NCBI RefSeq assembly: GCF_037392515.1
Contig: NC_090288.1
Span: 10,833,969-10,897,968, forward strand
Length of the DNA: 64,000 nt
Direction: 5' to 3'
DNA from: Haliotis asinina
Taxonomy: Eukaryota > Mollusca > Gastropoda > Lepetellida > Haliotidae
Shown: positions 4,245-52,800 of the stretch, piece by piece
How the letters are laid out: every line of letters starts with the position of its first letter
How positions within the stretch are numbered: the stretch's first letter is position 1
Notes under the pieces: model-generated
The model's input: the letters and a program-made list of their open reading frames with translations, nothing else
Told to the model about the DNA's origin: nothing
The model's database searches: none
Made by a program: the position numbers and the translations under genes

Positions 4245-4475
4245 TTGGTTGGTTTGTTGTTAAGCAAAATTCCAGCTTTATGGCGGCGGTCTGTAAACTA
4301 ATGAGTCTTTCCCAGGCAATCCAGTGATCAACAGCAGGAGCATCGATCTACGCAACTGGGATATGATGATATGTGTCAACCCAGTCAGCGAGCCTGACCA
4401 CCCGATCCCGTAAGTCGCCTGTTACGACAAACACGGGGTACTAAGATCAATTCTAACCCTGATCTTCATGGTTTA
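4245..4475 (-). mobile_element. SINE-L copy, diverged
   Basis: Reversed SINE-L body with ggcggtctgtaaa and gacaatccagtgatcaaca-like segments. Confidence 0.7.
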
Positions 4476-5426: not shown

Positions 5427-8400
5427 TCATAGGTCTCTCTCACAAATGTAATGTTTCGCTTCCATACCCTCCTTGTCACTCCACAGGAAACCATACTGGG
5501 GGTCGGCGACTAGGTAGTTTTTGTCGGTGCCGTTCTGTGGGTAGCCTGGACCCCAGGCAAAGTACGTCATGATTCGACCGTCATGAAACACCCAGTGGCC
5601 TTCGGTTTCGACGTCCGCCCCATCGATGTGGAATTTTCTTAACATATTGTCTAAAAAAAACAGAAAGTTTGAGAATGTACTCGGACGCGTAATCTATCAG
5701 TCACATGTGCAAATACTGTGACTGTCTCTAATAGTCACTGATGCACGTATTAACAATTTAATAGTCACTGCTGAACGTACTGACAGTCTAATAGTCACTG
5801 CTGCAAGTACACAGAGTCAAATAGTCACTGCTCCACGTACTGACAGTCTAATAGTCCAGGCGGCACGTACTGACTGTCTAATAGTCACTGCTGGACCTCC
5901 TAACAGTCTAATAGTCACTCCTGCACGTACTGACACTGTAATAGTCGACGCTGCACGTACTTACAGTTTAATAGTCACTGCTGCACGTACTGACAGTCTA
6001 ATAGTCACTACTGCTCGTACTCAGAGCCAAATAGTCACTGTTGCACGTACCCAGAGCTGTCTCTAATAGTCACTGATGCACGTATTAACAATTTAATAGT
6101 CACTGCTGCACGTACAGTCCAATAGTCGATGCTGCACGTACTCACAGTCCAATAGTCGATACTACACGTACTTACAGTCTAATAGTCCAGGCGGCACGTA
6201 CTGACAGTCTAATAGTCACTGCTGGACCTCCTAACAGTCTAATAGTCACTCCTGCACGTACTGACACTGTAATAGTCGACGCTGCACGTACTTACAGTTT
6301 AATAGTCACTGCTGCACGTACTGACAGTCTAATAGTCACTGCTGCACGTACTGACAGTCTAATAGTCACCACTGCTCGAACTCAGAGCCAAATAGTCACT
6401 GTTGCACGTACCCAGAGCTGTCTCTAATAGTCACTAATGCACGTATTAACAATTTAATAGTCACTGCTGCACGTACCTACAGTCCAACAGTCGATGCTGC
6501 ACGTACTCACAGTCCAATAGTCGATACTACACGTACTTACAGTCTAATAGTCCATGCTGCACGTACTGACAGTTTAATAGTCGATGCTGCACGTACTGGC
6601 AGTCTAATAGTCACTGCTGCACGTACTGACAGTCTAACAGTCGATGCTGCACGTACTGACAGTCTAATAATGACTGCTGCACGTACTGACAGTTTAATAG
6701 TCACTGCTGCACGTGCTGACAGTCAAATAGTCACTGCTGCACGTACTGACAGTCTACTAGTCGATGCTGCACGTACTTACAGTCTAATAGTCGACGCTAC
6801 ACGTACTTACAGTTTAATAGTCACTGCTGCACGTACTCACAGTCTAATAGTCTCTGCTGCACGTACTGACAGTCTAATAGTCACTGCTGCACGTACTCAG
6901 AGCCAAATAGTCACTGCTGCACGTACCTACAGTCTAATAGTCGATGCTGCACGTACTTACAGTAAAATAGTCGATGCTGCACGTATTTACGGTCTAATAG
7001 TCACTGTTGCACGTACTCACAGTCCAATAGTCACTGCTGCACGTACTCAGAGTCAACTGTTCACTGCTGCATGTACTAAGAGTCCAATAGTCACTGCTGC
7101 CGTACACAGAGTCAAATGGTCACTACTGCATGTACTGACAGTCTAATAGTCACTGCTGCACGTACCCAGAGTCAAATAATCACTACTGTACGTACTGGCA
7201 GTCTGATAGTCACTGCTGCACGTACTGACAGTCTAATAGTCGATGCTGCACTTACTTACAGTTTAATAGTCACTGCTGCACGTACTCAGAGCCAAATAGT
7301 CACTGCTGCACGTACTCACAGTTATATAGTCGATGGTGCACGCACTGGCACTCTAAGAGTCACTGCTGCACGTACTGAGTGTCTAATAGTCACTGCCGCA
7401 CGTACTCACAGTCTAATAGTCACTGCTGCACGTACTGACAGTCTAATAGTCACTGCTGCATGTACTGACAGTCTAATAGTCTGTGCTGCACGTACTGACA
7501 GTCAAATAGTCACTGCTGCACGTACTCATAGTCAAATAGTCACTGCTGCACGTACGTACAATCTAATAGTCACTGCTGCCCGTACCCAGAGTCAAATAGT
7601 CACTGCTGCACGTACTTACAGTCTAATAATCGATGGTGTACGTATTTACAGTCTAATAGTCACTGTTGCACGTGCTCACAGTCCAATAGGCACTGCTGCA
7701 CGTACTCAGAGTCAAATGGTCACTGCTGCTCTTTCTCAGAGTCAAATAGTCACTGCTGCACGTATTTACAGGCTAATAGTCACTAGCGCGCGTACTCAGA
7801 GTCAAATAGTCGATGCTGCACGTACTTACAGGCTAATAGTCGATGCTGCATCTACGACAGTCTAATAGTCACTGCTGCATGTACTGACAGTCTAATAGTC
7901 TATGCTGCACGTACTGACAGTCAAATAGTCACTGCTGCACGTACTCATAGTCAAATAGTCACTGCTGCACGTACTCAGAGTCAAATGGTCACTGCTGCTC
8001 TTTCTCAGAGTCAAATAGTCACTGCTGCACGTACTTACAGTCTAATAGTCACTGCTGCACGTACTCACAGTCAAATAGTCGATGCTGCACGTACTTACAG
8101 GCTAATAGTCGATGGTGCACGTATTTACAGTCTAATATTCACTGTTGCACATACTCACAGTCTCTATTAGTCACTGTATTCACTGTCTCTATAGCTAGTG
8201 TTGCACTCACAGTCTCTATTAGACACTGGTGCACTCACAGTCTCTGTAGACACTGCTGCACTTAGACATTAGCCACTGATTCGCTGGAAGCCGGCCAAAA
8301 ACTCATTTCAGATTTTTATCATGGTTAATGTCTAATTGAACGTTGTGTAACGCTGAAGCAAAAACTAATACGGAGTGCTTACCCACTCCGTATTCCATTA

Positions 8401-11400
8401 CAACTGACTCCTGCAACCTGCATACGAAAATTCAGTATTCGGACTCCAGTCGACTCGGACATCCGTAGTAATCAATTCCACCGCGAAAATTAACATATAA
8501 TGATTCTTTATTATTGTCATATAAATAGGGTATAAAAAATGAATTGAACCCACGAAGAAAAATTAGAGTTGGTCTCCAGCAACCATGCCTTAAAAGGCGA
8601 CTAACGGGATTGAGTGGTCAGGCTCGCTGACACATATCATCGTATTGCAGTTAAGCAGATCGATGCTCATAGTCCTGGTTACTGGTTTGTCTGGTCCAGA
8701 CTTGATTCCGTACAGTATAGATGGAATATTGCTGAGTGCGGTGTGAAACCACAATCATAAAAGGTGAAAAATAGTTAATAAATAACAACACTATTCGCGA
8801 TGGATTGAGATGGAACTTTAAAAATTAGGTTTATCTCGGTTAAAAGGTGGCGCTTTTTTATTTTTTTAAATGAATAGTTTTAATGTATACGTGTGCTTAA
8901 CAAATGGTTTAAAGATGATCGCTAATTATCTTATGTGATACAGGCAGCTACAGAGACAAGAAAAAAGACAGCTTTATCTGTGATTGTTTCACAAGACCGA
9001 CTGCCTACCTTTAGGAAACTATTGTCATGTGTCTTTTTGAGTGGCCGTCATATCTTCATTCAGTGATTGTAATCTTCAAATGTGGACGCACAGCCCATTG
9101 AGGCAAATGATAGAAAACGGAGAGTGCAGTTTCATATAATTTTGTACTGGGGTGTCTGGGGATTTTTTTATTGGACCAATTACGTCACAGTTTGAGAGCT
9201 GTCTTTGCGGCAGCATGACCCGCAGCGTTAGCAATGTAATACAACCAAGAAATGTAGTGTACTGGCCAGAAGCAATATAATCATTTATAATGAACTCAAG
9301 ACACTAGACACTAGTTTACATACACCACGTTGAAGCAGGACATACAGCCGATCCACCAACATTGTATTGTTCATTGACCTTCATTTTGCATGTTGGTCGA
9401 TGAACATCCATATTTCCTGGTCTGTCTTAAGTCGTATGGTAAAATGATATAATTTTCATTGTTTCTAATATAATGTTTGTCTTTTTTAGTAATCATCATC
9501 ATCAATCATAAGGAGTCTGGCTGACATGGCGTGATAAAAAGATGTTCGCGATGAAGCGTGATCACAAGATGTTCGCGATGAAGCGTGAAGACAGGATGAG
9601 GCGTGATAAAAAAAGATGTTCACGATGAAGCGTGAAGACAGGGTGAGGCGTAATAAAGAAGATGTTCACGATGAAGCGTGAAGACAGGATGAGGCGTGAT
9701 AAAAAAAGATGTTCACGATGAAGCGTGAAGACAGGGTGAGGTGTGATAAAGAAGATGTTCACGATGAAGCGTGATCACAAGATGTTCGCGATGAAGCGTG
9801 AAGACAGGGTGAGGCGTGATAAAAAAAGATGTTCACGATGAAGCGTGAAGACATGGTGAGGCGTGATAAAAAAAGATGTTCGCGATGAAGCGTGAAGACA
9901 GGGTGAGGCGTGATAAAAAAAGATGTTCACGATGAAGCGTGAAGACATGGTGAGGCGTGATAAAAAAAGATGTTCACGATGACGCGTGAAGACAGGGTGA
10001 GGTGTGATAAAGAAGATGTTCACGATGAAGCGTGAAGACAGGGTGAGGCGTAATAAAAAAAGATGTTCACGATGACGCATGAAGACAGGGTGAGGCGTAA
10101 TAAAAAAAGATGTTCACGATGACGCATGAAGACAGGGTGAGGCGTGATAAAAAAAATGTTCACGATGAAGCGTGAAGACAGGGTGAGGCGTGATAAAAAA
10201 AGATGTTCACGATGAAGCGTGAAGACAGGGTGAGGTGTGATAAAGAAGATGTTCGCGATGAAGCGTGAAGACAGGGTGAGGTGTGATAAAAAAAGATGTT
10301 CACGATGAAGCGTGAAGACAGGGTGAGGCGTGATAAAAAAAGATGTTCACGATGAAGCGTGAAGACATGGTGAGGCGTAATAAAAAAAGATGTTCGCGAT
10401 GAAGCGTGAACACAGGGTGAGGTGTGATAAAGAAGATGTTCACGATGAAGCGTGATAACAAGATGTTCGCGATGAAGCGTGAAGACAGGGTGAGGCGTGA
10501 TAAAAAAAGATGTTCACGATGAAGCGTGAAGACATGGTAGTGATACTAACCAGACGAGGAGTTGATTTGGTTCACCATGTGGCTTTGCTTCTCCGCATTG
10601 TCGATGACAAGGAGGTGTTCCCCTCGAGAATTACAGTCTTCCTCACCGGCATGAAACGTGGCTCTGATAAGATGAATCTGGTAGCACATGTTCAGAATTC
10701 TGTTGTGGACATAGGACAAGGGACATCCACCTGTGAAGTACATGGACAGGTTTGTGTTGGACTTATCATGCAACAATTATCAGACGGGGTCTTTTGAGGA
10801 CGGTATGCTGCTTATACATAGATACCTTTTCTGGATTTCATCTTGTTTTCTATTCATTCATACAACGTTTCAGGCTTTGTGCAGATGTCACTAAGGTGAT
10901 CGGGTGGTCAGGCTTGCTTGATCTGGTTAATACATGTCATCGTATCCCGATTGTGTGGATCGATTCTAAAGCTCTTTGATCACTGGATTGTCTGATACAG
11001 ACTCGATTAGTTACAAACTACCTCCATATAGTTGAACAAACAAATCTGAATGAGCATATTTGAAGGAAGTAAGGTTCGAATTAGGTTAGAATTTTTAATG
11101 TTTATCGTCATAGCCGGAAGTGTTTCAGTCATCTTTATCGCCATAATTAAACATTGATGTGCAAATATTACAAGCGTACAAACATCTGCAATACTGGTGT
11201 TGTGAATGAAAGCAATATCTCCCTAATCCATAATGTACTCAACTTTTAACCATATTTTCCGACGCGGCACTTAGGAACATGTCAGTCATGATTAACAGAC
11301 ATCACACTGGTAAAAGTCGAAAAATGCTTAATCTCAAATGTACTCAAGTGTTTGCTATATCTTTCCCATGTGATTTGCAGTGATCTCGAATCATTCAATC

Positions 11401-16808: not shown

Positions 16809-17728
16809 TCAATAACGTGTATGTCTACTACCGGCACTGACAACAGCTGTGCATCGATAACGCATAGAGCCTATCAAGCGTGCAACGAAGGCTTGTGGGA
16901 CGTCACGCCAGATTCTCTCTGTACTCGCCCTTGACCAGTTCTGTTGCAAGGTCAAGGACGTTATTTGGCGGATGAGGAAGACGGCATATACGTCGATCCA
17001 AACATACTTCAGGTCTCGTCCCAAACATGCTCTATCGGAGAGACGTCCGGTGAATTTGCAGACCAAGACAGTGAGCCAAACTGTGGCGTTGCAAGAAATC
17101 AAACACCCACGGCCATGACGTTGCTAAAAAAGAAGTGTCACAGGTAGAAGAATCTGATCCCTGTAGCCCATACCAGTTGAGTTGTCCCGAACAATCACCA
17201 AAGGAGTTCTTTGGTGTGCTGTTATTCCACCCCACGCATCCCGGAACCACCACCAAAGCGATTCCTCAAACCTGGACTCATCTGTAAAAACAACATTTCT
17301 CCACCAAAACAAGGGTCTGAGGACATGATTTCGGCACCACATTCGGCGAGCTTGTTCATGACGTTGTGTCAGGATAGGTTGTATGACGTGACGTCGTGGT
17401 CTGATCCCGTCTGATCCCGTAAACGTCGTCAAATCGTGTTGGGGTGAATACGGCGAATTCCTGGGATGGTCCGAGCTGTCATCACTGCAGTCTGAAATCT
17501 GTGGCGAAGATGGGTCACCCTTATCCACCTGTCCTGTCTTGACGTTGCTACACGTGTACGTCCAGAACGTGGACGATCGATGACGTCATTTGTGTTCTGG
17601 TAGCGTCTCACCTGTGCAGAAATAGTGTTCCGGTGGCAGTGGAAATGTGCAGCCACTTGTCGTTGAGACATTCCTCCACGAATCATCCCTGTGGCCTCGT
17701 GACGTTGTGCAGACGTTAGCCTTGACAT
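16809..17728 (-). pseudogene. Decayed Tc1-like transposase
   Basis: Read from 17728 down, the start is MSRLTSAQRHEATGMIRGG with a helix-turn-helix (SQRQVAAHFHCHRNTIS), then an RPRSGR linker, RHVIQPILTQRHEQARRMWC and the catalytic-region segment WWRNVVFTDESRF. About 40 residues are lost between DESRF and WGGITAHQRTP. The C-terminal part (LQQNWSRASTERIWRDVPQ, then RCTAVVSAG and HTRY) is in another frame, ending with a stop at 16809-16811. At least two frame changes and two internal deletions, including loss of the second catalytic Asp region, make it inactive. I could not see terminal inverted repeats around it. It is a plain DNA transposon of the IS630-Tc1-mariner superfamily. Confidence 0.85.
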
Positions 17729-18230
17729 GCTATGCCTTTCAATAGCCCTTAATGTTTTTAACGATCGCAGGGGCAGGGGTTGAGCTTTCCAAAGTGACAG
17801 TATAGTGCGGCATTCATTTGCTGTTTTTTTCTTTCACGGAATGCACAATCATGCAACAACGTATTGCACGTCTGCAGGACGAAACCACTGACGTCGCGGA
17901 ACGTGGCACGTGCGTGCATATTGGATACTAATGTCACTAATCTCTGAGTTTAAATCCTTATGTGTCTACACAGGTTTGATAAATTTAGATTTTAAATTTT
18001 TGTATGCACAGTTTCTTTATGTCCCTAGCATATATTAACGGAAACGGTTGTTTAACCAATGCTCAAAATGCCAGTTTGTTGATTGTCTGGTCTGAATCAT
18101 TTACAGACCACAGTCCTAATACAGGAATATGGTTGAATGCGACGTTCAAAGGAAACAAGTCATATGCGCCAAAAAACAGCATCACTTTCACCCGTAGGGC
18201 TATCGGAATATCAGTAAACGCGGCGTAAAC

Positions 18231-28412: not shown

Positions 28413-30488
28413 ATGGCGAAATCGGAAGTCAGAAATATCTTGATTGCAATGGACGGAAGTGAGATCGCCGTTCGCGCGTTTGATTGTGAGTACCAATGAT
28501 ATTGAAATAACATAGCTTGATATTGATAAAAATAAGTGATTATGTTATTACACCAAATATGACAAAATTCCGATAATGTTAGGGCGATGACATCAGAGTC
28601 TGGCCGTTATTTGAATCAAAACCGGATCAGTGGACCACAAGGATTTGTGAATAAAACCTATATGGTTCCTCGAGAAAGAAAACGAATTGTGGATTGCATA
28701 TTTCGTTCTTCTACACACATAAATTTGACCCGTGAAGGTCCGTAGGCCTTCAGCGACATTGCTTGCCATAAAAGGCGACTCTGCTTGTCGTAAGAGGAGA
28801 CTAACGGGATCGGGTGGCCAGGCTCGCTGACTTGGTTGACACATGTCATCGGTTCCCAGTTGCACAGATCGATGATCATGCTGTTGATCACTGGATTGTC
28901 TGGTCCAGACTCGATTATTTTCAGACCGCCACCATATAGGAGGAATATTGCTGAGTATTCGCTCGTATTCAAGAGGGTATTGTTTAAACGTTTAATCGTC
29001 AGTAGTGGTTATCATCAACTTTACATAAACCTTTATGCTCTTGTTCTCTTAATTATGATTGCCAATATCATATGTGTGAGGTACACTAAAAATCTGTAAA
29101 ATGAGATCAAATTATTATACTCATACTTGTTGCCCGTGTCAAATAGACAAAAGTACAAAGCAGTACTTGAACAATCTTAATGTCATTGCTTCTCGTATCA
29201 ATACCCTCGTTATTAAACATTATGCGACTTACATGTATGTACTCTTTGCTCTCAAAGAGAAAAATCAATTTGATGTATGAGAACATGTATATACTAGGTC
29301 CGTTACCTCGTGGGGTAGCCTAGTGGCTACAGTGCCCGCTCGTCGCGCTGAAGACCCGGGTTCGATTCCCTACATGGATACAATGTGTGAAGGCCATTTC
29401 TGATGTCCCCTGTCGTGATATCGCTTGAACATTGCTAAAACAAGCGCAACACCCTACTCACTCGTTCACTCTTAATGTGAATAGCACACAATTATTCTTT
29501 ACGTAAGAATCAATGAAACCTAAAATGTCATGACACTTTTACTGCTACTTTTGTATCTCCAGGGTACGTCAAAGAGATTTACAGACCTCATGACCACGTG
29601 ATATTTGTCCACTGTCCTGAGCACAGAGCATCCATTCAGTCAGGTCAGTATCAGTTCAGTGCTGCGATCCGCTCTAGCATCATTCCTGTTCACAGCTTGA
29701 TTGGCAAATCATATTTGCGTGCGTGCGCGCATGCACTGGTCGAAACAGATGCCTCTTTTGTAGAACGCAAAATTAACGCGAATACGACACTCACTCAACA
29801 TGATGATGTTAGTGTTTCTACAAAAAGAACCTCAGTTACCATAGTAACGTGAAATATATCTGATAAAGCTTAGTGTTACGTCTAACAGTAATGATGGGTG
29901 ACAGCCTGACGGTGGAGGCCGAGATGGCAGCCGTGTTGGCGGAGGAGGCGAATCGAATCAAGTCCATGGTAGCTGAACTGGGAGAGAAGCTGAAAAAAGC
30001 AAAGGTATTTTACGGAACAAAACTTGACTCCACCCGTTAACGGCAAATATCAACAGAAGCTATCAACATATATGTCCAGCTATGTCATTGTTCAGAGTGT
30101 AGTGTAGCTGAATTAAACCCTCCTGGCGATGAGGGTCGGGGCTAGCTGGCACACTTTATTCACTGTTTTGCCGATCTTTTTCTCATTAAAATCAATGCTT
30201 GATGTCTTTACACTGCTCTTAAGTTATGTGTGGATTGAAATATCGGAAACCAATATCTTCAGTTGAAATTACCATCATGAGTGATCTCCCTTTCAGATTA
30301 GCGGAAAAGTGAAGTGCGTGCACGGGATGCCAGGGGAGGTAATCGTGCAGGTCGCGGAGGAAGAGAAGGTGGAGTTCATCATCACAGGGACGCGCGGATT
30401 GGGGGCGATACGGCGGACGCTTCTAGGCAGCGTCAGCGACTACGTCTTACATCACAGTAACGTGCCGGTGCTTGTCTGCCGTCACTAG
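28413..30488 (+). CDS. Universal stress protein A, 4 exons
   Basis: Exons are 28413-28485, 29563-29643, 29889-30004 and 30297-30488, with GT/AG introns of phases 1, 1 and 0; together they give 153 residues, the usual length of a single-domain USP. Residues 8-16 (NILIAMDGS) are the first strand and the nucleotide-contacting Asp14. Exon 2 gives [20 protein letters not shown], the second strand region. Exon 3 is a charged helix. Exon 4 carries the MJ0577-type ATP-binding signature G121-x2-G124-x9-G134-S135, followed by [18 protein letters not shown]. Such proteins bind ATP as dimers and are linked to stress responses; the role in this animal is not known. It is the first of four head-to-tail copies. 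Intron 1 holds one SINE of each family. A candidate poly(A) signal lies at 31341. Confidence 0.9.
28728..28962 (+). mobile_element. SINE-L copy in USP A intron 1
   Basis: Nearly complete from acccgtgaaggtcc to ggaatattgctgagta; the actc tail is missing. An open frame across it on either strand is a repeat translation. Confidence 0.85.
29306..29470 (+). mobile_element. SINE-S copy in USP A intron 1, 92 bp before exon 2
   Basis: Complete tRNA-like head (ggggtagcctagtggctac, ggttcgattcc), body and actcactcgttcact tail. Confidence 0.85.
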
Positions 30489-34932: not shown

Positions 34933-37900
34933 ATGGCTTCGCAACGGAATGTCGTCCTCGCAATGGATGGAAGCAACCACTCTATGTACGCCTTTGACTG
35001 TAAGTAATGCAATCTTTATATGTACCTCGATACAAGCTTGTACTGGGATGCAATAAGGGTGTAACAGTATATTTTGTAACATGTGCGTGTGAGTGTACAT
35101 GCGTAACACAACCCACACCACCCATGTGCTGTTAAATATGCAGACATGAAAGTGAGTGAAAAGTCAGCGAACATGCCATTTGTCATCATCATCGACCCTT
35201 GCTGCTTAATCTGAAACTTAATATATAAAATTGCATTCATTTCTCAACGGTGCGAGGAGCATTTGGTATTTAGATATATAACACATCTGACAGACAATTC
35301 GATATAGCATATCAGCTGAGTCGAGTCGGTTTGGAATTTCGAAGTAGACAGTTTGTAGAAGAACACCAAATGAATATATATAGCTAGCTTGAAATATGAG
35401 AAGGGCATGAGTATAAGCCTACGTTCGATGTACCAACTGCAAACATAACATGACCCGGTTTTTGAAAGCCGTGCTGTAATTTAAGGCTGTATTGAATGCG
35501 CATGGATGTATAGTAATTCTACCATTTAAAAACGTGCATCTTTGTAAGTGCATAGTACTAAGGACGCCAGTTGTTGTTTTTTTAGTTAAATTATTAAATA
35601 TAATCTCAGAGACTTGTGCAAGTCTACATTCACCCCAACGTGAGTCCTACAGTAGGACAGGATTTAGCATTCTCTAACGTTGACTGTCAATACCTGTCAA
35701 TTTTGAAACCTGATTGCTGCAGTATTAGGCATGTGATGGTGGTATTCTATTAAATCGCGCCTGGATTAGACAGTCCAGTGATTGATATTAAGAGCAACGT
35801 TTTGTGGGTATATGACACAGGTTCAACCATGTCACCGATCCTGAATACACGTTCAGCACCGGTGAAGATCCGGATTACTGTTCGTATGCAGTAGCCTATT
35901 ATTGTCGTAAGAAGCGACGAACAGGATTGGGGGGTCAAGCTTGCTGACCTGGTTAACACATGAGCGATACTCATGATGTTGATCACTGGATCATCTGGTC
36001 CAGACTCATAGTTAGAGTGAGTGAGTGACTTACTATTTAACGTCACATCGGCAATATTTCAGCCATATCGTGACGAGAACCATTAATACAGAGATGCCAA
36101 CCCCATCTGCTTCAAATAGTATTCATCACAAATAAAAATAGTATTTCAGAGACAAAAATAGTAACACACTCATCTCAACACATGTGTCCAACTGTTTGAC
36201 TAACCTGTAACAAATTGTAATGTTACTGTAACTTAAACAGGCCTTGACATACTTTCATCTACGGTTGTCTGCAATGTTAACGATGTTTCACGGTGTATTC
36301 CATATGGTTTTGACAAACTGGTTGCAAAAGTTATATACGCAAGTAAATCTGCCGATAAACGAAGCTGTATTTCTGTCTTTATTTACGAGACAAAAAATAC
36401 GTGTAGACAAATAATTAAAAATCGTACTTATTTACTACATGGTCGTAACATCGTATTTTCACCCCAGAATTCGTAACAAATACGACTTTTTCGTTACGGT
36501 TGGCATCTCTGTTAATATTATACATAATAGTGAATGGTAAAAACTTGTCAACGAAAGACAGTAAAACAGATAGATAACCACAGACAGATATTTAAAATTA
36601 GCAATTAAATCTAAAACAGTTTAACTACAGAGGACGATACAATATAAAAACGGGCTATAGACCGCCAGCAACTGAAGGTAGATCACCATACCAGGGTCCA
36701 TGGGGACTTACAGTACCTTTACTACCTACTTGGGCCCCAGTTGCATTAAAAACCTTACACCATTGTTGGAAAGTTTAGCCAAATTTTGAAAGAACACATA
36801 TACTACGTTTAAAATGGGGTAAGCAAAAATTAAACTCTGAAAGTTTTGGGACTTACGTACCCTCTCAGGAGGACAATAATTTTACGATACTTTAACCCCC
36901 TTTGACGATACAGCCACTAACAATACCAGTTGCTAATTTATAGTACCAGTCATTAAAATACAACTATCTACAGCACATATTAATCAAAATTAAATTATGA
37001 AATCCATTTCTTTTTAAAAAAAAAACATGACCAAATGAGAACTAACAGTGGTAAAAAGATCCTTAACAGTTTTGACATGGAAATATTTATCCCTTGTGAT
37101 ACTCATAGCTGGAATATTGCTGAGTGCGGCGTTGCGGCGTTGCGGTGTTGCGGCTTTGCGGCGTTGCGGTGTTGCGGCGTTGCGGCGTTGCGGCGTTGCG
37201 GAGTTGCGGAGTTGCGGCGTTGCGGCGTTGCGGTGTTGCGGCGTTGCGGTGTTGCGGCGTAAAGCAACAAACTAAACCCCACCTTCAGCTGTTGCTGGCG
37301 ATTTATTCTAACCCAGAATGTTCAATCCCTTTATTCAAAGTTATATTACAGTACCTGCATATATACAAGCACAAGTGAAAGTACATGAGTAGACTTCAAT
37401 TTGAAAACGAGGTCACTTTCAAACGAAACATGCATACTTGTCTGAGCCTATGAACCTATAAACAGATAAAATGTTATCTAAGTAACCCTAGACATGAGAT
37501 ATGAGTCACATTAACAAAGGTAAACATACACACTACCGCTGAATTTGAATTACAATCTTGTCAACAAGTGGACTCTCAAGACAACCTTGTAAAGGTGAAA
37601 CCTGCAAGTAGAGCTTGTATAGGTGACATCGACCTGCCCGGATAATATTTGGTTATGTCAAACTCAGACTGTAGAGTAATCGTGTCTCAAAGCATCAACC
37701 TGTGAAGATTCGGGGTAGAATAGGTCTTCAGCAACCCATGCTTGCCATAAAAGGCGAATCAGCTTGTCGTAAGAAGCGACTAACGGGGTCGGGTGGTCAG
37801 GCTCGCTGGCTTGGTTGACACATGTCATCGGTTCCCACTTGCAAAGATCGATTCTAATGCTGTTGATTGCTGGAATGTGTGATCCATACTCGATTATTTA

Positions 37901-38127: not shown

Positions 38128-41100
38128 TAGTAGTAGTAGTAGTAGTAAGTGTACACTGAATTGCTATCGACGAACCCGCTTGTGCACGATTTGGTGCTTG
38201 TCAAAAATACTCACGTACGATTTTAAAGCAGTATTTTCCATTGTGATAAGAATATTGTATCTTTCTTTGGTTATTCAAGCCACAGGTTCACTTAAAAAAT
38301 CATTGGAAATATTGTCTTATTAGGGCAACGTATGAATTATTAAACATTCGTTGTGCGTCTGACAACTCTTATATTCTGCACTACTCGACAGAGAGTGTGT
38401 ATGGTTTTACGCCGTGTGTAACAATATTCCAGCGATATCACAGCGGGGAACACTAGAAATGGGCTCCATTTGTGGTCCATTTGTGTTTAAACAGGGTCTT
38501 CGGCGCAACGGCGGAACGCTTTAACCAATAGGCTACGGTGCGTGCAGTTATGTGATATGGAACCTGACCTTTGAGGAGCGAACGCTTTAACCATTAGGCT
38601 ACGGATAGTGCAGTTATGTGATATGGACCCTGACCTCTGAGTCATTAGGCTACGGATAGTGCAGTTATGTGATATGGATCCTGACCTCGGAGTCATTAGG
38701 CTACGGATAGTGCAGTTATGTGATATGGACCCTGACCTCTGAGGAGCGAACGCTTTAACCAATAGGCTACGGTCCGTGCAGTTATGTGATATGAACCCTA
38801 ACCTCTGAGGAGCGAACGCTTTAACCAATAGGCTACGGTCCGTGCAGTTATGTGATATGGAACCTGACCTTTGAGGAGCGAACGCTTTAACCATTAGGCT
38901 ACGGATAGTGCAGTTATGTGATATGGACCCTGACCTCTGAGTCGTTAGGCTACGGATAGTGCAGTTATGTCATATGGACCCTGACCTCTGAGGAGCGAAC
39001 GCTTTAACCAATAGGCTACGGTCCGTGCAGTTATGTGATATGGACCCTGACCTCTGAGGAGCGAACGCTTTAAACAATAGGCTACGGTCCGTGCAGTTAT
39101 GTGATATGAACCCTGACCTCTGAGGAGCGAACTCTGTAACCAATAGGCTACGGATAGTGCAGTTATGTGATATGGACCCTGACCTCTGAGGAGCGAACTC
39201 TTTAACCATTAGGCTACGGATAGTGCAGTTATGTGATATGGACCCTGACCTCTGAGGAGAGAACGCTTTAGTCACTAGGCTACACTGCCTTGCCGTCCGT
39301 ACCTACAGTATGCCCTAAGTAGACAGCGAAACAAAAGGGTTCATAGGTTAAATAAAATTAACTCAAACCATTGTATGTCTGATTCCAGGGTGGGGCGGTG
39401 GGGTAGCCTAGTGGTTAAAGCGTTCGCTCGTCACGCCGAAGATCCGGGTTCGATTCCCCAAATGGGTACAATGTGTGAGGCCCATTTTCTGGTGTCCCCC
39501 GCCGTGATATCGCTGGAATATTGCTAAAAGCGGCGTAAAACCAAACTCACTCACTCACTGATTCCAGGGTACTTGGAGAACATCCATAAGGCTCATGACC
39601 ACGTTATCATTGTCCACTGTCCGGAGTATCATGCAGTCATGCAAGCACGTGAGTATTCATCGTACAATCCGGACGCCACGTGCGAATCATTGTGTCAGAA
39701 ATTCAATTGTTGTTTTTCATTTGTATTTGTATATTCTTAAGCACATGTTCATGATATAGTCGGGATCGTACAATGGACTTTGCTTATAGCAGAGTTTGGT
39801 TTAAGGACGTGGGCAGGTTTTTGCGCTTCCGTTTATACATACTCACACGCACAAGAAACGCAATTTTTTTATCCAAACAGGAAACAAACTCGGAACCCTA
39901 AATCGATATGAGTGAAGCATTATAGAGGTATGAATAATATTTGTTGCGTTGTGGAAGGGACGAGTAAAAACACTTCAATAGCAGGAATCACCAAAACGCA
40001 TCATATTAATGAAAATGTGGGTATCATGCATACACTTCACTTAAAATCGAACATGGACGAATTGTCACCACCATTGGTGGGTATGAGGCTGCACAAAAGT
40101 TGGGCCTATCACAAGCGCGTATTGTCAAGTTTAACCCAAATTGAAAGAAACCAGGCTATAGGACGTTTGGAAGCTTGAATGTGTGTCCAAAATGTTGTCC
40201 GTTATTTGGTCGTAAACATAACCACGATTCACCAGCATCGATACAATGCTACACACAGACCACAGATGACCTTCTCTGGAGCGGTCGCCTTAGGTCACCA
40301 CCCCTCGACAAGATCGGCACATTTACGGTCAACACCAGAGAGATCCGTTATTGTCACCCCATTTACCTGTCGAAAACTTAATGTCATCAGTCTTGGTAGC
40401 CAGTGAAATGCCTTCACTCTTTTTTTCATCTATCTGACCATCTGACCCTGTTTGTATTTCTTGTGTATAATATTGAAAATTACATACATATATTCTTTAT
40501 ACTTTACTTACGTTACTTATGCGTATATTTGTGTTCGTATGCCAAAAAGAAAAAAAAGAACACGCTCACTCTCTCACTCACGCACATACACACATGCACG
40601 CGGTCACAAACTCAAGCACATACACTCACACAGTCACTGAATCTGAATACGTGACTGTGTATATTAAATTAGGAAGGTCATTCGACAGAGAAGTTACACA
40701 ACACCTCCGAGGGCCGTGCTCTTAACTATTAGTTATCTAACTCTCTTATACAATAGGTCCTAACGACACAGTGTCATGGGAAGGTCATCCACATGGACGC
40801 AGAGAAAATATCTGCAACGAGAATAGTTAATATACTGCCTCCACGTCACACGACATGATTACCCATAATTCAGTGTAGTAGCAGTGTACATTATACAACG
40901 GAAACTATGTGACTCGCATAATTCAAATGGCTCGGGCAAAGCCATTATCGTGATCATGTAAGACTTAGTTATATGGGAGAGCCGGAGATGTAACACGTTT
41001 GAGATCGGCGTGGTGTACTCCTATATGAAAGATCACAATCGGGGTGAATTTGAAATTCGTATTCATAGGCTGCGGTTTAAACTGATCTTTAGCAACCTTG

Positions 41101-43086
41101 ATTGTCGTAAGAGGTGGCTAACGGGATCGGGTGGTCAGGCTCGCTGATTTTTTTCATGCATGCACGCAGCAGCGTAAATTGATGCTCAAGCTGTTAGTCA
41201 CTGGGTTATCTCGTCAAGTTTAGCTGTAACATTAGGGTTAACAGACATACATACAAATCAAGACATACTGACTCAGCAATATTCTCGCTATGTGGCGGAC
41301 GTGTGTAAGAAATCGAGTCTGGGTCAGACAATCCAGTGATCAACATCATGAGCATTGATCTACGCACCCGATCCTTAGTCGCCTCTTACGACAAACATGG
41401 GTGGCTGAAGATAAATTCGAACCCCGATTTTCACGGGAGGTTAAGCAATAGTACTTGTTGTTACCTTTCCTGGCGCATTATGGGAACAAAGCAAGGACTT
41501 ATTGGCTCCGAATCATTACAATTGTCTCTGCGAGTTATCCATGTTAAGGTATATCAGTGGACATACACGGTAAATCGACGTGAGCCAGGACAATTGCAAG
41601 CAGTTACACTTTATACTTATTGCATGACGAACACGCTTATAACGAACATAACCGCACAGAGCACTGTTACCTAACCGTACCGGCCACTAACTGTATATTT
41701 TAGTCTACTTATGACGACCTACGATACACGACGAACTAAGACACGTGGTTCATTTCAGTTCGTATAAGCGTAGTTTGCTCTTTAACAATATTATTTTTAA
41801 AGCAACATCAACCCCTATTTCACCTAAACACGCGTGTTGTTTGTTAACGCTGACAGCGATGGTGTTGGCTGACGTCACGGCAGTGTCAGAGATCATGGCG
41901 GAGGAGGAAAAGAAGATCAAGGCGCTGCTAAACAACTTTGGGGAGAAACTCAGGAGCGCTGGGGTAAAACATTAATCATCATAATCTTATCGCGTTTTGT
42001 CGTAACTTGTAGGAGTGCTGGTTTGCTTGCTCTGTCGTAATGCAACATAAGACCCAGAATGGCATCACGTGATTCCGATGACATTTTCTTAATTTCTGTT
42101 CATAGTTGAATACCGCACTCCGCATATTATAATTGTAATGTATGATGGCGGTCTGCAGTAATCACGTCTGAAGTGAACAGTCCAGTGGATTATGTAATGA
42201 ACACACACACAGCTGAACACGATGGCATGCAATCAACGGTCAGATTACCTTGTCCATTTAGTCATGGTAGACACAGGTTGCAAAGGACCTATATTCTTAC
42301 ACGGAATCCTCGCGACTGTAAAAATGGCAAGAGCATCTATCATGTTAGTCATCCATGTCACAAGTCTGCCTCGACTCTATTTCTCTCATTCTCTGTCATT
42401 TAACACCGCGGTCGGCTACAAATTGTACTGACGTAGATCAGAAAGTACACAACTCGTACCTTCGTATTATTTTCCTAATAGTTAAAAAGCGTTTTCATTA
42501 TGAGGAAAGTGAGGTGTAGGCAATGTCGACGTCGCAATCAGATACGATGTATACGGTGTTCTTTTAAGCCTACACAATATGTGTGACATGTAAAATGAAA
42601 TGTTTTTCAAAACATTTACTTTGTATTGTTTGAAAAAAGTCCCAAAACACCAGGTGTGTCTATTTTCTTGTGTGCATCAGTGTATCACTATCAGAGCGGT
42701 TTACGCATAGAAGAGGCTGGACCAGTCAAATTAAAATGACATGAACAACGACTCACCTGATACAGGTCATGACTGTCAGATAGCCGCAACACTTCCTGGT
42801 CACCGATAATTATTCACGCAATTCTAGAATATTCTAATAACCAGACATAAAGACAGACTTGTCTACATTTCAGATTGGCGGTAAAGTGAAAAGCGTTGGT
42901 GGCCAACCAGGGGAGGTTGTGGTGCGGGTTGCCGAGGAAGAGGGCGCGAGTCTCATTATAACAGGCACCCGGGGGAATGGCACCATTCGCCGCACCCTCA
43001 TGGGCAGCGTCAGCGACTTCATCGTACACCACAGTCACGTCCCCGTGCTTGTGTGTCGCCGGAAGGCGCATGCGCATGAACACTAG
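34933..43086 (+). CDS. Universal stress protein B, 4 exons with long introns
   Basis: Exons are 34933-34999, 39568-39648, 41857-41963 and 42874-43086 (155 residues), with the same intron phases 1, 1, 0 as copies A and C. Exon 1 ends VVLAMDGSNHSMYAFD; exon 2 encodes WYLENIHKAHDHVIIVHCPE; exon 4 has the intact signature G116-x2-G119-x9-G129-S130 and a short basic, His-rich tail (RRKAHAHEH). Intron 1 is 4.6 kb and swollen by repeats: a MITE, a 9-bp array, a triplet array, a 66-bp minisatellite and several SINEs. A SINE just before exon 2 duplicated its target site, so the acceptor sequence is present twice, at 39387-39388 and 39566-39567. Only the second keeps the frame open: the first would read into the SINE and stop after a few codons. 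The family call is firm; choice of acceptor in cells is not known. Confidence 0.88.
35865..36013 (+). mobile_element. SINE-L copy in USP B intron 1
   Basis: Head ccggtgaagatccggatta through gttgatcactggatcatctg to the cagactcata segment; the tail is lost. Confidence 0.65.
36089..36511. mobile_element. Non-autonomous DNA transposon, 423 bp, 14-bp TIRs
   Basis: The ends cagagatgccaacc and ggttggcatctctg are exact inverted repeats. TTAATA is repeated directly at 36083-36088 and 36512-36517. The body is AT-rich and non-coding. The CAGAG end recalls hAT elements, but the target repeat is not 8 bp; the superfamily is left open. Confidence 0.75.
37105..37280 (+). repeat. SINE tail with an inserted 9-bp array
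   Basis: agctggaatattgctgagtg is the SINE-L tail. Its gcggcgt is followed by about 15 units of the 9-mer ttgcggcgt (variants ttgcggtgt, ttgcggagt) to 37260, after which the tail resumes (aaagcaacaaactaaac). The frames of repeated CGVAALRR are artefacts. Confidence 0.88.
37700..37970 (+). mobile_element. SINE-L, full copy, USP B intron 1
   Basis: Complete from cctgtgaagattcggggta to the actcactcactcactc tail; a triplet repeat follows directly. Confidence 0.88.
37979..38147. repeat. (AGT/AGC)n triplet array
   Basis: About 56 triplets of agt with blocks of agc. It abuts the SINE-L tail. Frames of poly-Ser, poly-Val or poly-Tyr are artefacts. Confidence 0.95.
38400..38537 (-). mobile_element. 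SINE-S copy from which the 66-bp array grows
   Basis: The reversed tail and body end in the head segment cgctttaaccaataggctac, exactly where the neighbouring minisatellite begins. Confidence 0.75.
38525..39290. repeat. 66-bp minisatellite carrying the SINE-S head, about 12 units
   Basis: The unit is gaggagcgaacgctttaacc, aataggctacggtccgtgca, gttatgtgatatggaccctg, acctct. A 51-bp form lacks 15 bp inside the SINE-derived half. Long minus-strand frames (PQRSGSISHNCT repeats) come from the array. Confidence 0.92.
39392..39557 (+). mobile_element. SINE-S inserted at the USP B exon 2 acceptor
   Basis: 166 bp, full and little diverged. The 13-bp direct repeats ctgattccagggt at 39379-39391 and 39558-39570 are its target-site duplication and contain the splice acceptor CAG/GGT. 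Confidence 0.93.
40120..40335 (+). pseudogene. Fragment of a Tc1-like transposase N-terminus
   Basis: LTQIERNQAIGRLEA, a stop codon, then VVRYLVVNITTIHQ and RYNA recall the helix-turn-helix start of Tc1 transposases; RQDRHI follows in a shifted frame. The rest is absent. It lies in USP B intron 2 (39649-41856). Confidence 0.6.
41083..41440. mobile_element. Two SINE-L fragments in opposite orientation, USP B intron 2
   Basis: 41083-41230 is a plus-strand SINE-L fragment; 41268-41440 is a minus-strand one lacking part of its middle. Confidence 0.7.
42110..42195 (-). mobile_element. SINE-L fragment, USP B intron 3
   Basis: Reversed tail half only (ggcggtctgcagtaatcacg, acagtccagtg). Confidence 0.55.
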
Positions 43087-49843: not shown

Positions 49844-52800
49844 ATGGCAGAAGCTTCACACGAAAGAACAGTTGTCGTAGCTATGGACGGGAGTCACTTC
49901 GCAGCGTATGCTTTCGAATGTAAGTTAGAATGTTTTTTTTTATAATAATTTCATGCATCGATCAGTTTTGCGTCAGTCGCTGTGGAGCGTGGTGCCGTGC
50001 TCAGCTCTTCATTTATCAATAATATCCGCCGATGGACACCCAGTAGTTATTTATGAATGACATAAGATATGCATCTGCAGTCAGTGGTTGTCATTTTAAA
50101 ATGAAGTTAATCTATAAGCACTGTACTGTCAAAATTTTCACAAAACACTTGCATTTCAGTTTTGTTTTGCCCGGGAGGTGAAGGACGCCTCACCGGTGAT
50201 CAGAAAATCTCCATCCCATGATATTTGATGTTTGTGAAAGCATGACTTGCATGGAATGGTATCTGCGCCCTTTCATTGATATATGTATCTCATGAATAGT
50301 TCAATATTATATTTTACCAACATAACAGAGACGAAATATCAGATTAAGGTTGTACATATTATTCATAAATATATCTAAAGTAAAATTTAGTCCCCAGAGA
50401 TCTTATATTCCGTCCACTGTTGTAAGTGATCGGTGAGTGACATATGTGTTATTTGGTTGTTTGTTTTGTTATTTAACGTTGCACTCAGCAATATTCCAGC
50501 TGTATGGGCTTTGTGAGTGAGAGTATGTTTCTTCGAGGTTTTTAGCATTGTATATAAATGGTTATACTCCATTCTATAATTACAGGTAAATGTTGTGAAA
50601 ACGTATCCAGTATATCCACAGAGTAAAATGAGTATCATGTTTATAGCACATAAATCTAAATATGGAACTATAAAAAGAGTGGTGAGACAGTTTACTTTAA
50701 TGCCGCGTGTAGCACTATTCCAGCAATATCATTGGGAACACCAGAAATGAGATCAACACATTGTGCCCATGGGCCAGGATATTAGGCATGAAATTGAAAA
50801 AAAAAATAGCAGAAAGCTGAATTTTTCAGGAAAGCTTCAGAACATCATTAAGTGCATTAAGTGCACTTTTAAGTAGAAAGTTCTGCAAATTCTACCGTGT
50901 GGGACCCGTGAAGGTCCCGGGATAGAATATGCCTTCAGCAAGGGGACTATGCTTGTCGTAAGAGGCGATTAACGCGATCGGGTGGTCAGGCTCGCTGACT
51001 TGGTTGACACATGTCATTGGTTCCCAATTGCGCAGATCGATACTCATGTTGTTGATCACTGGATTGTATAGTCCAGACTCGATTATTTACAGACCCCCGC
51101 CATATGCTGTAATATTGCTGAGTGCGGCGTAAAACTGAACTCACTCACTCACTCTACCGTGTGGCATTTTCAAAATGGCCGTCAAATTCTTTCAAATGAT
51201 TATACACACAGAGATTTTGTCAATAATTATGCCATGTGATATATCAAATGGCAGCTCATCTCACAAGGAATCTAATTTGATATCATGCATGAACCTGCTA
51301 TTTGTGTCTAATGCTTCTGGCCGACCATGTGGACAACACAGGTCGTCGGCCGGACCGGAGAACGCGTTACCCACAAGACTACCCAAACTCCCGTTTCACC
51401 CAGCGAATGTCTAAGGGGTAATACCAAACCAATGCACATTAACACGATTTCAGTGATTCTAAATGGGGAATACACACCGGTCTTGCATCGCATCATATAC
51501 CACCTGTCAGATTCTAAGGGGAATACTTTCGTGTCTTGTGAGACAAGACAAATTGATTTTTACTATCATAGCTATATGATGCTACTAAGATAGCTGTAAG
51601 GCTTTATGAGATCGACATTTTAAAAAGATCGATTACAAAACCAAGTAGAGTCATACATCTTTGATACATTTCAACGGCCTATTCACGTCACCTCACTTCC
51701 GTAAAACATACTTGTTTATTCATGGAAACCACTTCTTGCTTGAAACAATTTCCACCTGACCTAACATAATAATGATCTTTCATGCCACACATGCATTAAT
51801 AAGAGCAATTTTCATTGCCCGTTCCTCGTTCATTTCTAAAGATTGCGTGCATTGGAAACAATAATTTAATCACGGATAAATGTTTGGATAGACAGACTGA
51901 CTGTCTGAGTTTGGCTTTACGCCACTCTGAGCAATATTCCAGTAACATCACGGCGGCGCACACCAGAAATGGGTTTCACACATTGTACACGTGGGGATTC
52001 AAACCCGGCTCTTCGGCCTGACGAGCCGCTCCTATTTTGATAGAACAACCAACCAAAATACTTTATTCTGCAGGGTACATGGACAATGCATACCGGAAGA
52101 CGGATTATGTTATTTTCGTCCACACGCCCGAGTTCCACAACGTCGTGTGTTCATCTTCAAGTAAGTACACGTTTACCATGTATTTAATGCTTATTTGGTC
52201 CAAACGACACCGGACCCGTGAAGGTCCCGGGGTAGAATAGGCCTTCAGCAACCCATGCTTGCCATAACTGGCGACTATGCTTGTCGTAAGAGGCGACTAA
52301 CGGGATCGGGTGGTCAGACTCGCTGACTTGGTTGACACATGTCATCGGTTCCCAATTGCGCAGATCGATGCTCAGGTTGTTGATCACTGGATTGTCTAGT
52401 CCAGACTCGATTATTTACAGACCGCCACCATATAGCTGGAATATTGCTGAGTGCGGCGTAAAACTAAACTCACTCATTCACTCACCCAAACGACACCGGT
52501 TTACATTAGCTGCCGGGTCGATGTCAGACTGGATGATTCATTATCAGGTATGAAGAATTTTTCAGTGGCATTTGTCTTTGAAGATAATTCTGCTTTTACC
52601 AAGTGCCAAATAAGTTATTCTAGTTCAGTTCGTCCGGTTTGGGAGACACTAAGAACTTCTTAATGTTGAATTTTCCACAGTTTGCTTGTATATTCTAGGG
52701 CGTTGAAGAAATGTGAATTGCAGTTACGTCTACTTATTACTTAATTCTAGATCTGTTGTGTAGCACTCGACAATCGTCAAGCTGAACCTGAATGAATAAT

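Follow-up and report, generated by a model that had tools for sequence, protein, structure and literature searches.

A SINE insertion with target duplication doubles the intron 1 splice acceptor of a USP gene in Haliotis asinina

How does a gene survive the insertion of a mobile element directly on one of its splice acceptors? The gene USP B offers a clean natural case of this problem, with a SINE that is essentially unmutated, and it also asks whether a SINE tail other than poly(A) can furnish a branch point and pyrimidines. USP B is one of four USP genes (A to D) encoded on one strand at approximately 28.4 to 68.4 kb in the coordinates of the window (the whole 64,000-nucleotide stretch of H. 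asinina DNA that was analyzed), the last part falling outside the window. In gene models built from the sequence, each of these genes has four recognizable exons. Those of USP B, all on the plus strand, are the coding part of exon 1 (34933 to 34999; 67 nt, donor GTAAGT), exon 2 (39568 to 39648; 81 nt, phase 1 at both ends), exon 3 (41857 to 41963; 107 nt), and exon 4 up to the stop codon (42874 to 43086; 213 nt). In all four genes, exon 1 ends one base into a split codon, followed by GTGAGT or GTAAGT, and exon 2, which follows this same phase 1 donor, opens with CAG/GGTAC or CAG/GGTAT (CAG/GGTAY), so that the T/GG join between both exons yields a tryptophan codon. Since USP A, C and D share CAG/GGTAY, the ancestral acceptor of USP B was taken to be CAG/GGTAC, as found within the sequence CTGATTCCAGGGT.

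This sequence is present twice on the plus strand, at 39379 to 39391 and at 39558 to 39570, and both copies are identical at 13 of 13 positions. The upstream copy holds one acceptor (acceptor 1; CAG at 39386 to 39388, exon start at 39389), and the downstream copy holds another (acceptor 2; CAG at 39565 to 39567, exon start at 39568). Between them, a full-length SINE in sense orientation occupies the 3' splice site of intron 1, which doubles the acceptor and the first bases of the exon. The element has a tRNA-like head and a (CTCA)n tail (approximately 39541 to 39559, plus strand) with candidate branch points of the form CTCAC, and it matches other genomic copies from end to end. Its length is either 166 bp (39392 to 39557) or, from the comparison with other copies, 168 bp (39392 to 39559), because the "CT" at the 3' junction can be assigned to either the tail or the target. 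An earlier note on this DNA had described a 166-bp SINE with 13-bp target repeats that span the intron 1/exon 2 border of USP B, leaving two identical CAG/GGT acceptors 179 bp apart; our analysis agrees on each of these points, with CAG/GGTAC inside both repeats and the length read as 166 or 168 bp.

A search of the 1.14-Gb genome for copies of the SINE gave 3734 candidates at first look, 40 of which were scored. The 40 copies closest to that of USP B (itself included) were ranked by similarity and are hence a non-random sample. After removal of two duplicates and of five copies that lack a usable repeat, 33 distinct insertions with usable flanking repeats of 9 to 16 bp remain; the repeat starts with T or C in all but one of them, which fits priming at the tail. 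Dispersed copies, defined ends and variable target duplications, as seen among these 40 copies, are features of a SINE, and the 13-bp duplication in USP B is typical of target-primed reverse transcription. The repeats of USP B are not a product of chance, given that they bracket a full-length element and that the 33 insertions carry comparable ones. The same repeats argue against the idea that those of USP B are older than the SINE, or that the insertion is an assembly error. The insertion is known from one assembly, but the joined 468-nt coding sequence of USP B (exons joined through acceptor 2) matched its own four exons in the genome once each (99 to 100%), the rest being five paralogous pieces at 72 to 79% (nine matches, all nine scored), and we regard this explanation as exceedingly improbable. 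From these matches it also follows that the assembly contains no second copy of the locus, either haplotig or retrocopy, detectable with the 468-nt query. Two pairs of SINE copies on the same contig (L064/L065 and L066/L067), approximately 119 kb and 7 kb apart, have identical substitutions and target repeats and are therefore probably segmental duplicates.

Over its first 149 bp, the USP B copy has no private substitution relative to the other 39 closest copies; where it carries a minority state (T52 and A70), other copies carry it as well (C is found at these positions in 20 and 28 of the 40, respectively). The absence of private changes, together with the perfect target repeat, indicates that the insertion is, as judged from its sequence, young; it may still be polymorphic, in which case carriers and non-carriers would be directly comparable. 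Regarding its origin, the head scored 19 bits against the Rfam tRNA model (gathering score 29, E = 0.21), and ARAGORN predicted no tRNA gene over the window. By eye, we take the head to resemble box A and box B of an internal Pol III promoter, and we presume that the copy belongs to the molluscan V-SINE/RUDI-like elements; a search of the full-text literature with strings of the SINE sequence gave a paper on a bacterium as its sole match. An animal genome has on the order of 10^5 acceptors, and with this number of candidate SINE copies a few insertions on acceptors would be expected before selection, so that the event is not unexpected in itself.

The coding capacity of USP B is preserved when exon 1 is joined to exon 2 through acceptor 2. 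The product of 155 amino acids contains a Usp domain (Pfam; E = 5.4e-29, 102 bits with a cut-off of 24, residues 5 to 147), the remaining splice sites are intact, and the gene has no other damage. With an insertion this young, however, the intact ORF shows that USP B was functional until recently, not that it still is.

We estimated the strength of both acceptors with a simple position matrix spanning positions -20 to +4, built from 39 USP acceptors of the genome (17 of exon 2 and 22 of exon 4) with USP B left out. The matrix represents one gene family only, and one of its training acceptors (L039) was probably placed 6 nt off its true position; exon 4 matches beginning past query residue 8 were left out (which drops L041), and repeated acceptors were merged (from 24 to 22). 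Acceptor 1 obtained 8.0 bits (12 of the 39 training sites score lower) and acceptor 2 obtained 6.0 bits (8 of 39 lower), on a scale where the training sites, scored leave-one-out, range from -2.7 to 16.1 and the best of the other AGs within 39330 to 39660 reaches -2.3 bits. Among 11,792 plus-strand AGs of a 204-kb region, 1.7% reach the score of acceptor 1 and 3.3% that of acceptor 2. Under this model, both acceptors appear to be in the normal range of USP sites, acceptor 1 (the unproductive one) being somewhat stronger. When the intron part was scored alone, acceptor 1 obtained 5.2 bits (10 of 39 lower) and acceptor 2 a poor 1.9 bits (3 of 39 lower), and acceptor 1 was ahead in 94% of 2000 bootstraps (5 to 95% range of the difference, -0.1 to 7.1); acceptor 2 gains ground over the whole span because it alone retains the native exon start. 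The pyrimidine fraction from -20 to -4 is 0.71 for acceptor 2 versus 0.65 for acceptor 1. The higher score of the old upstream site suggests that the unproductive acceptor may win, and the proposal of the earlier note that the SINE may have rebuilt the 3' splice site is not demonstrated by the model.

Sequences of the form yUnAy were taken as branch-point candidates. Acceptor 1 has a candidate, TTAAC, at -28, and acceptor 2 has CTCAC candidates at -19, -15 and -11, all within the SINE tail. In addition, CTGAT is found at -7 of both acceptors, where its A is close for a branch point. The tail CTCAC at -19 or -15 would be a likelier source of the branch point of acceptor 2 than this CTGAT. The splice context of acceptor 2 had been proposed to derive from the SINE, which holds for the upstream sequence, nearly all SINE tail, but not for the CTGAT, which is duplicated host target. 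A similar arrangement is found at exon 2 of another USP gene (L048; minus strand, at 4.40 Mb of contig C9, on which the window also lies), where ACTCACTCACTCACTCAC is located immediately 5' of gcttgtttcag/GGTAC and CTCAC occurs at -25, -21, -17 and -13; the SINE profile scores only 8.9 bits at this array. This suggests that a family member can carry such a sequence at this acceptor, if the L048 gene is active. On the reverse strand of L048, an (ACTC)n array at approximately 4403 to 4431 adjoins the 5' side of this acceptor, and in exon 4 of this gene (L026) the acceptor likewise comes after a CTCA-rich stretch.

What would the two acceptors produce? Acceptor 1 would retain the old branch point and pyrimidine tract and lead into SINE sequence, and translation from exon 1 gives MASQRNVVLAMDGSNHSMYAFD-WWGGGVA-stop, that is, exactly seven codons after the join, where a stop within about seven had been anticipated; such a message would be expected to be degraded. 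Acceptor 2 would lead into the true exon, taking its branch point and pyrimidines from the (CTCA)n tail of the SINE. Competition between them would give a mix of productive and unproductive messages, and with it a partial loss of USP B output. Such mixed splicing across both acceptors is the outcome that we tentatively prefer from the sequence features described, even though the poor score of acceptor 2 on intron bases alone (3 of 39 training sites lower) speaks against it.

It is also conceivable, but in our view unlikely, that the insertion is silent for splicing, with acceptor 2 used nearly always because it adjoins the true exon and finds sufficient parts in the tail. Only acceptor 2 retains the native exon start, its score falls within the range of real USP acceptors, a comparable CTCA array occupies this position in L048, and the ORF and other splice sites of USP B are undamaged; yet the better intron context belongs to acceptor 1, and an intact ORF carries no information after so recent an insertion. 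RNA folding bears on this outcome in both directions. Three of four fold windows predict that acceptor 1 pairs with CTGGAAT of the SINE (probability 0.93 to 0.96, and 0 in the fourth), but the pairing is missing in the largest window and local folding closes both acceptors, leaving them almost never open. A 7-bp complement of this type is present for 5.9% of random 13-mers.

A near-null allele, in which acceptor 1 dominates, nearly all message ends in the SINE and USP B is turning into a pseudogene, would fit the higher score of acceptor 1 and its TTAAC at -28, and redundancy with other USP genes (23 exon 4 matches in the genome) could permit such a loss. Against this, USP B carries no other damage, although it would be too early to expect any, and we consider this outcome improbable.

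Beside the seven-codon dead end, which is upheld, the earlier note had not considered the skipping of exon 2. Given that this exon has 81 nt and phase 1 at both ends, skipping preserves the frame: the exon 1-exon 3 join would leave 387 nt (from exons of 67, 107 and 213 nt), or 129 codons including the stop, with 27 residues of the Usp domain lost. This could occur if both acceptors were weak, and passages on FAM161A and NF1 report exon skipping where a SINE or Alu element had inserted at an acceptor or close to it (PMC3976383; PMC3219598). Both acceptors of USP B score like genuine ones, however, and skipping is an unlikely but serious alternative here.

SINE and Alu elements inserted at intron/exon borders, or close to them, are already known to change splicing. 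In the merle PMEL/SILV allele of dogs, a SINEC_Cf is inserted at the intron 10/exon 11 boundary with a 15-bp target duplication (PMC7349775; PMC6091007). As described in the passages available from these sources, merle resembles USP B in having a SINE (tRNA-derived in merle) inserted with target duplication at an intron/exon border, a choice between two acceptors, and a tail that influences this choice. In contrast, the merle SINE is antisense, with a cryptic acceptor in the SINE body and a poly(T) tail, whereas the SINE in USP B is sense, its acceptors are the target copies and its tail is (CTCA)n. The merle passages are silent on a second complete acceptor created by the duplication. In NF1, a sense AluY is located at the AG/exon border of intron 14 (c.1642-1_1642), an 11-bp target duplication is listed for a sense AluY at this intron, and 4 of 14 Alu insertions in NF1, in the AG or the pyrimidine tract of a 3' splice site, led to skipping of the downstream exon (PMC3219598). 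The AluY shares with USP B a sense element at the AG/exon border, but the outcome given in this source is exon skipping, in patients. In FAM161A (dog PRA3), a SINE 15 to 16 bp before the acceptor, with a 14-bp flanking repeat, alters splicing (PMC3976383, which also cites HCRTR2 as a further splicing-changing SINE case); the outcome is again exon skipping, and the passages at hand mention no duplicated acceptor of the kind present in USP B. Finally, passages on introners describe splice sites recruited from target duplications, as in USP B, but these are new introns generated mostly by DNA-type transposition (PMC9860276), whereas in USP B a retroposon doubled the acceptor of an existing intron. 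What sets USP B apart from these cases is that each acceptor is an exact copy of the target and that the element is sense with a (CTCA)n tail; the literature searches for splice acceptors hit by a SINE or Alu element with target duplication listed no molluscan case.

We also analyzed whether SINE sequences are frequent before USP exons. We found SINE matches of at least 5 bits in the 200 nt before exon 2 in 8 of 18 USP genes, before 3 of 22 exon 4 acceptors and in 136 of 1500 random windows; with a cut-off of 20 bits over the same distance, the counts were 4 of 18, 1 of 22 and 91 of 1500. USP B is included in these counts, L044 and L054 probably represent one shared insertion, and L051 has only 130 nt. 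A SINE hot spot before USP exon 2 is suggestive only, the test being post hoc and weaker at strict cut-offs. The sequence CTCACTCA was present within 45 nt at exon 2 of 2 of 18 genes (USP B and L048), at 1 of 22 exon 4 acceptors (L026, same gene as L048) and in 5 of 1500 random windows (USP B, L048 and L026 identified by reading). Target preference was rejected as the cause of insertion on an acceptor, as the effect in a nick-site model was weak: trained on 32 insertions with USP B left out, it gave acceptor regions 1.32 to 1.48 in sense and 0.86 to 0.91 in antisense, with a background mean of 1.04. RNA structure was likewise discarded as an explanation, as the 271-nt stretch is no better folded than its shuffles (z = 0.46).

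A broader and distinctly doubtful proposal is that this SINE family brings ready-made acceptor parts: a preference for a T/T or T/C step, which is found in pyrimidine tracts, a (CTCA)n tail giving repeated CTCAC, and a duplication of 9 to 16 bp able to copy the AG. A sense insertion at a 3' splice site would then create a second, tail-driven acceptor whose productive share could be tuned by the number of tail repeats, like poly(A) length in merle, and USP B and L048 would represent a single process at two different ages.

Other features were observed in the window. Copies of the SINE family are located at 29310 to 29469 (sense), 93 bp upstream of exon 2 of USP A, and at 51898 to 52026 (antisense, partial), 47 bp upstream of exon 2 of USP C. 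Intron 1 of USP B harbors a tandem array of 66- and 51-bp units (38514 to 39283), many of which match the antisense head of the SINE family from model position 7 or 12 to approximately 60; with a SINE copy (38390 to 38536, minus strand) at its edge, the array probably grew from a SINE. Long open frames at 5722 to 8265 (plus strand) and 9775 to 10513 (minus strand) consist of short tandem repeats and are probably minisatellites rather than genes, and broken frames at 16809 to 17833 (minus strand) bear a resemblance, by eye, to a Tc1/mariner-type transposase.
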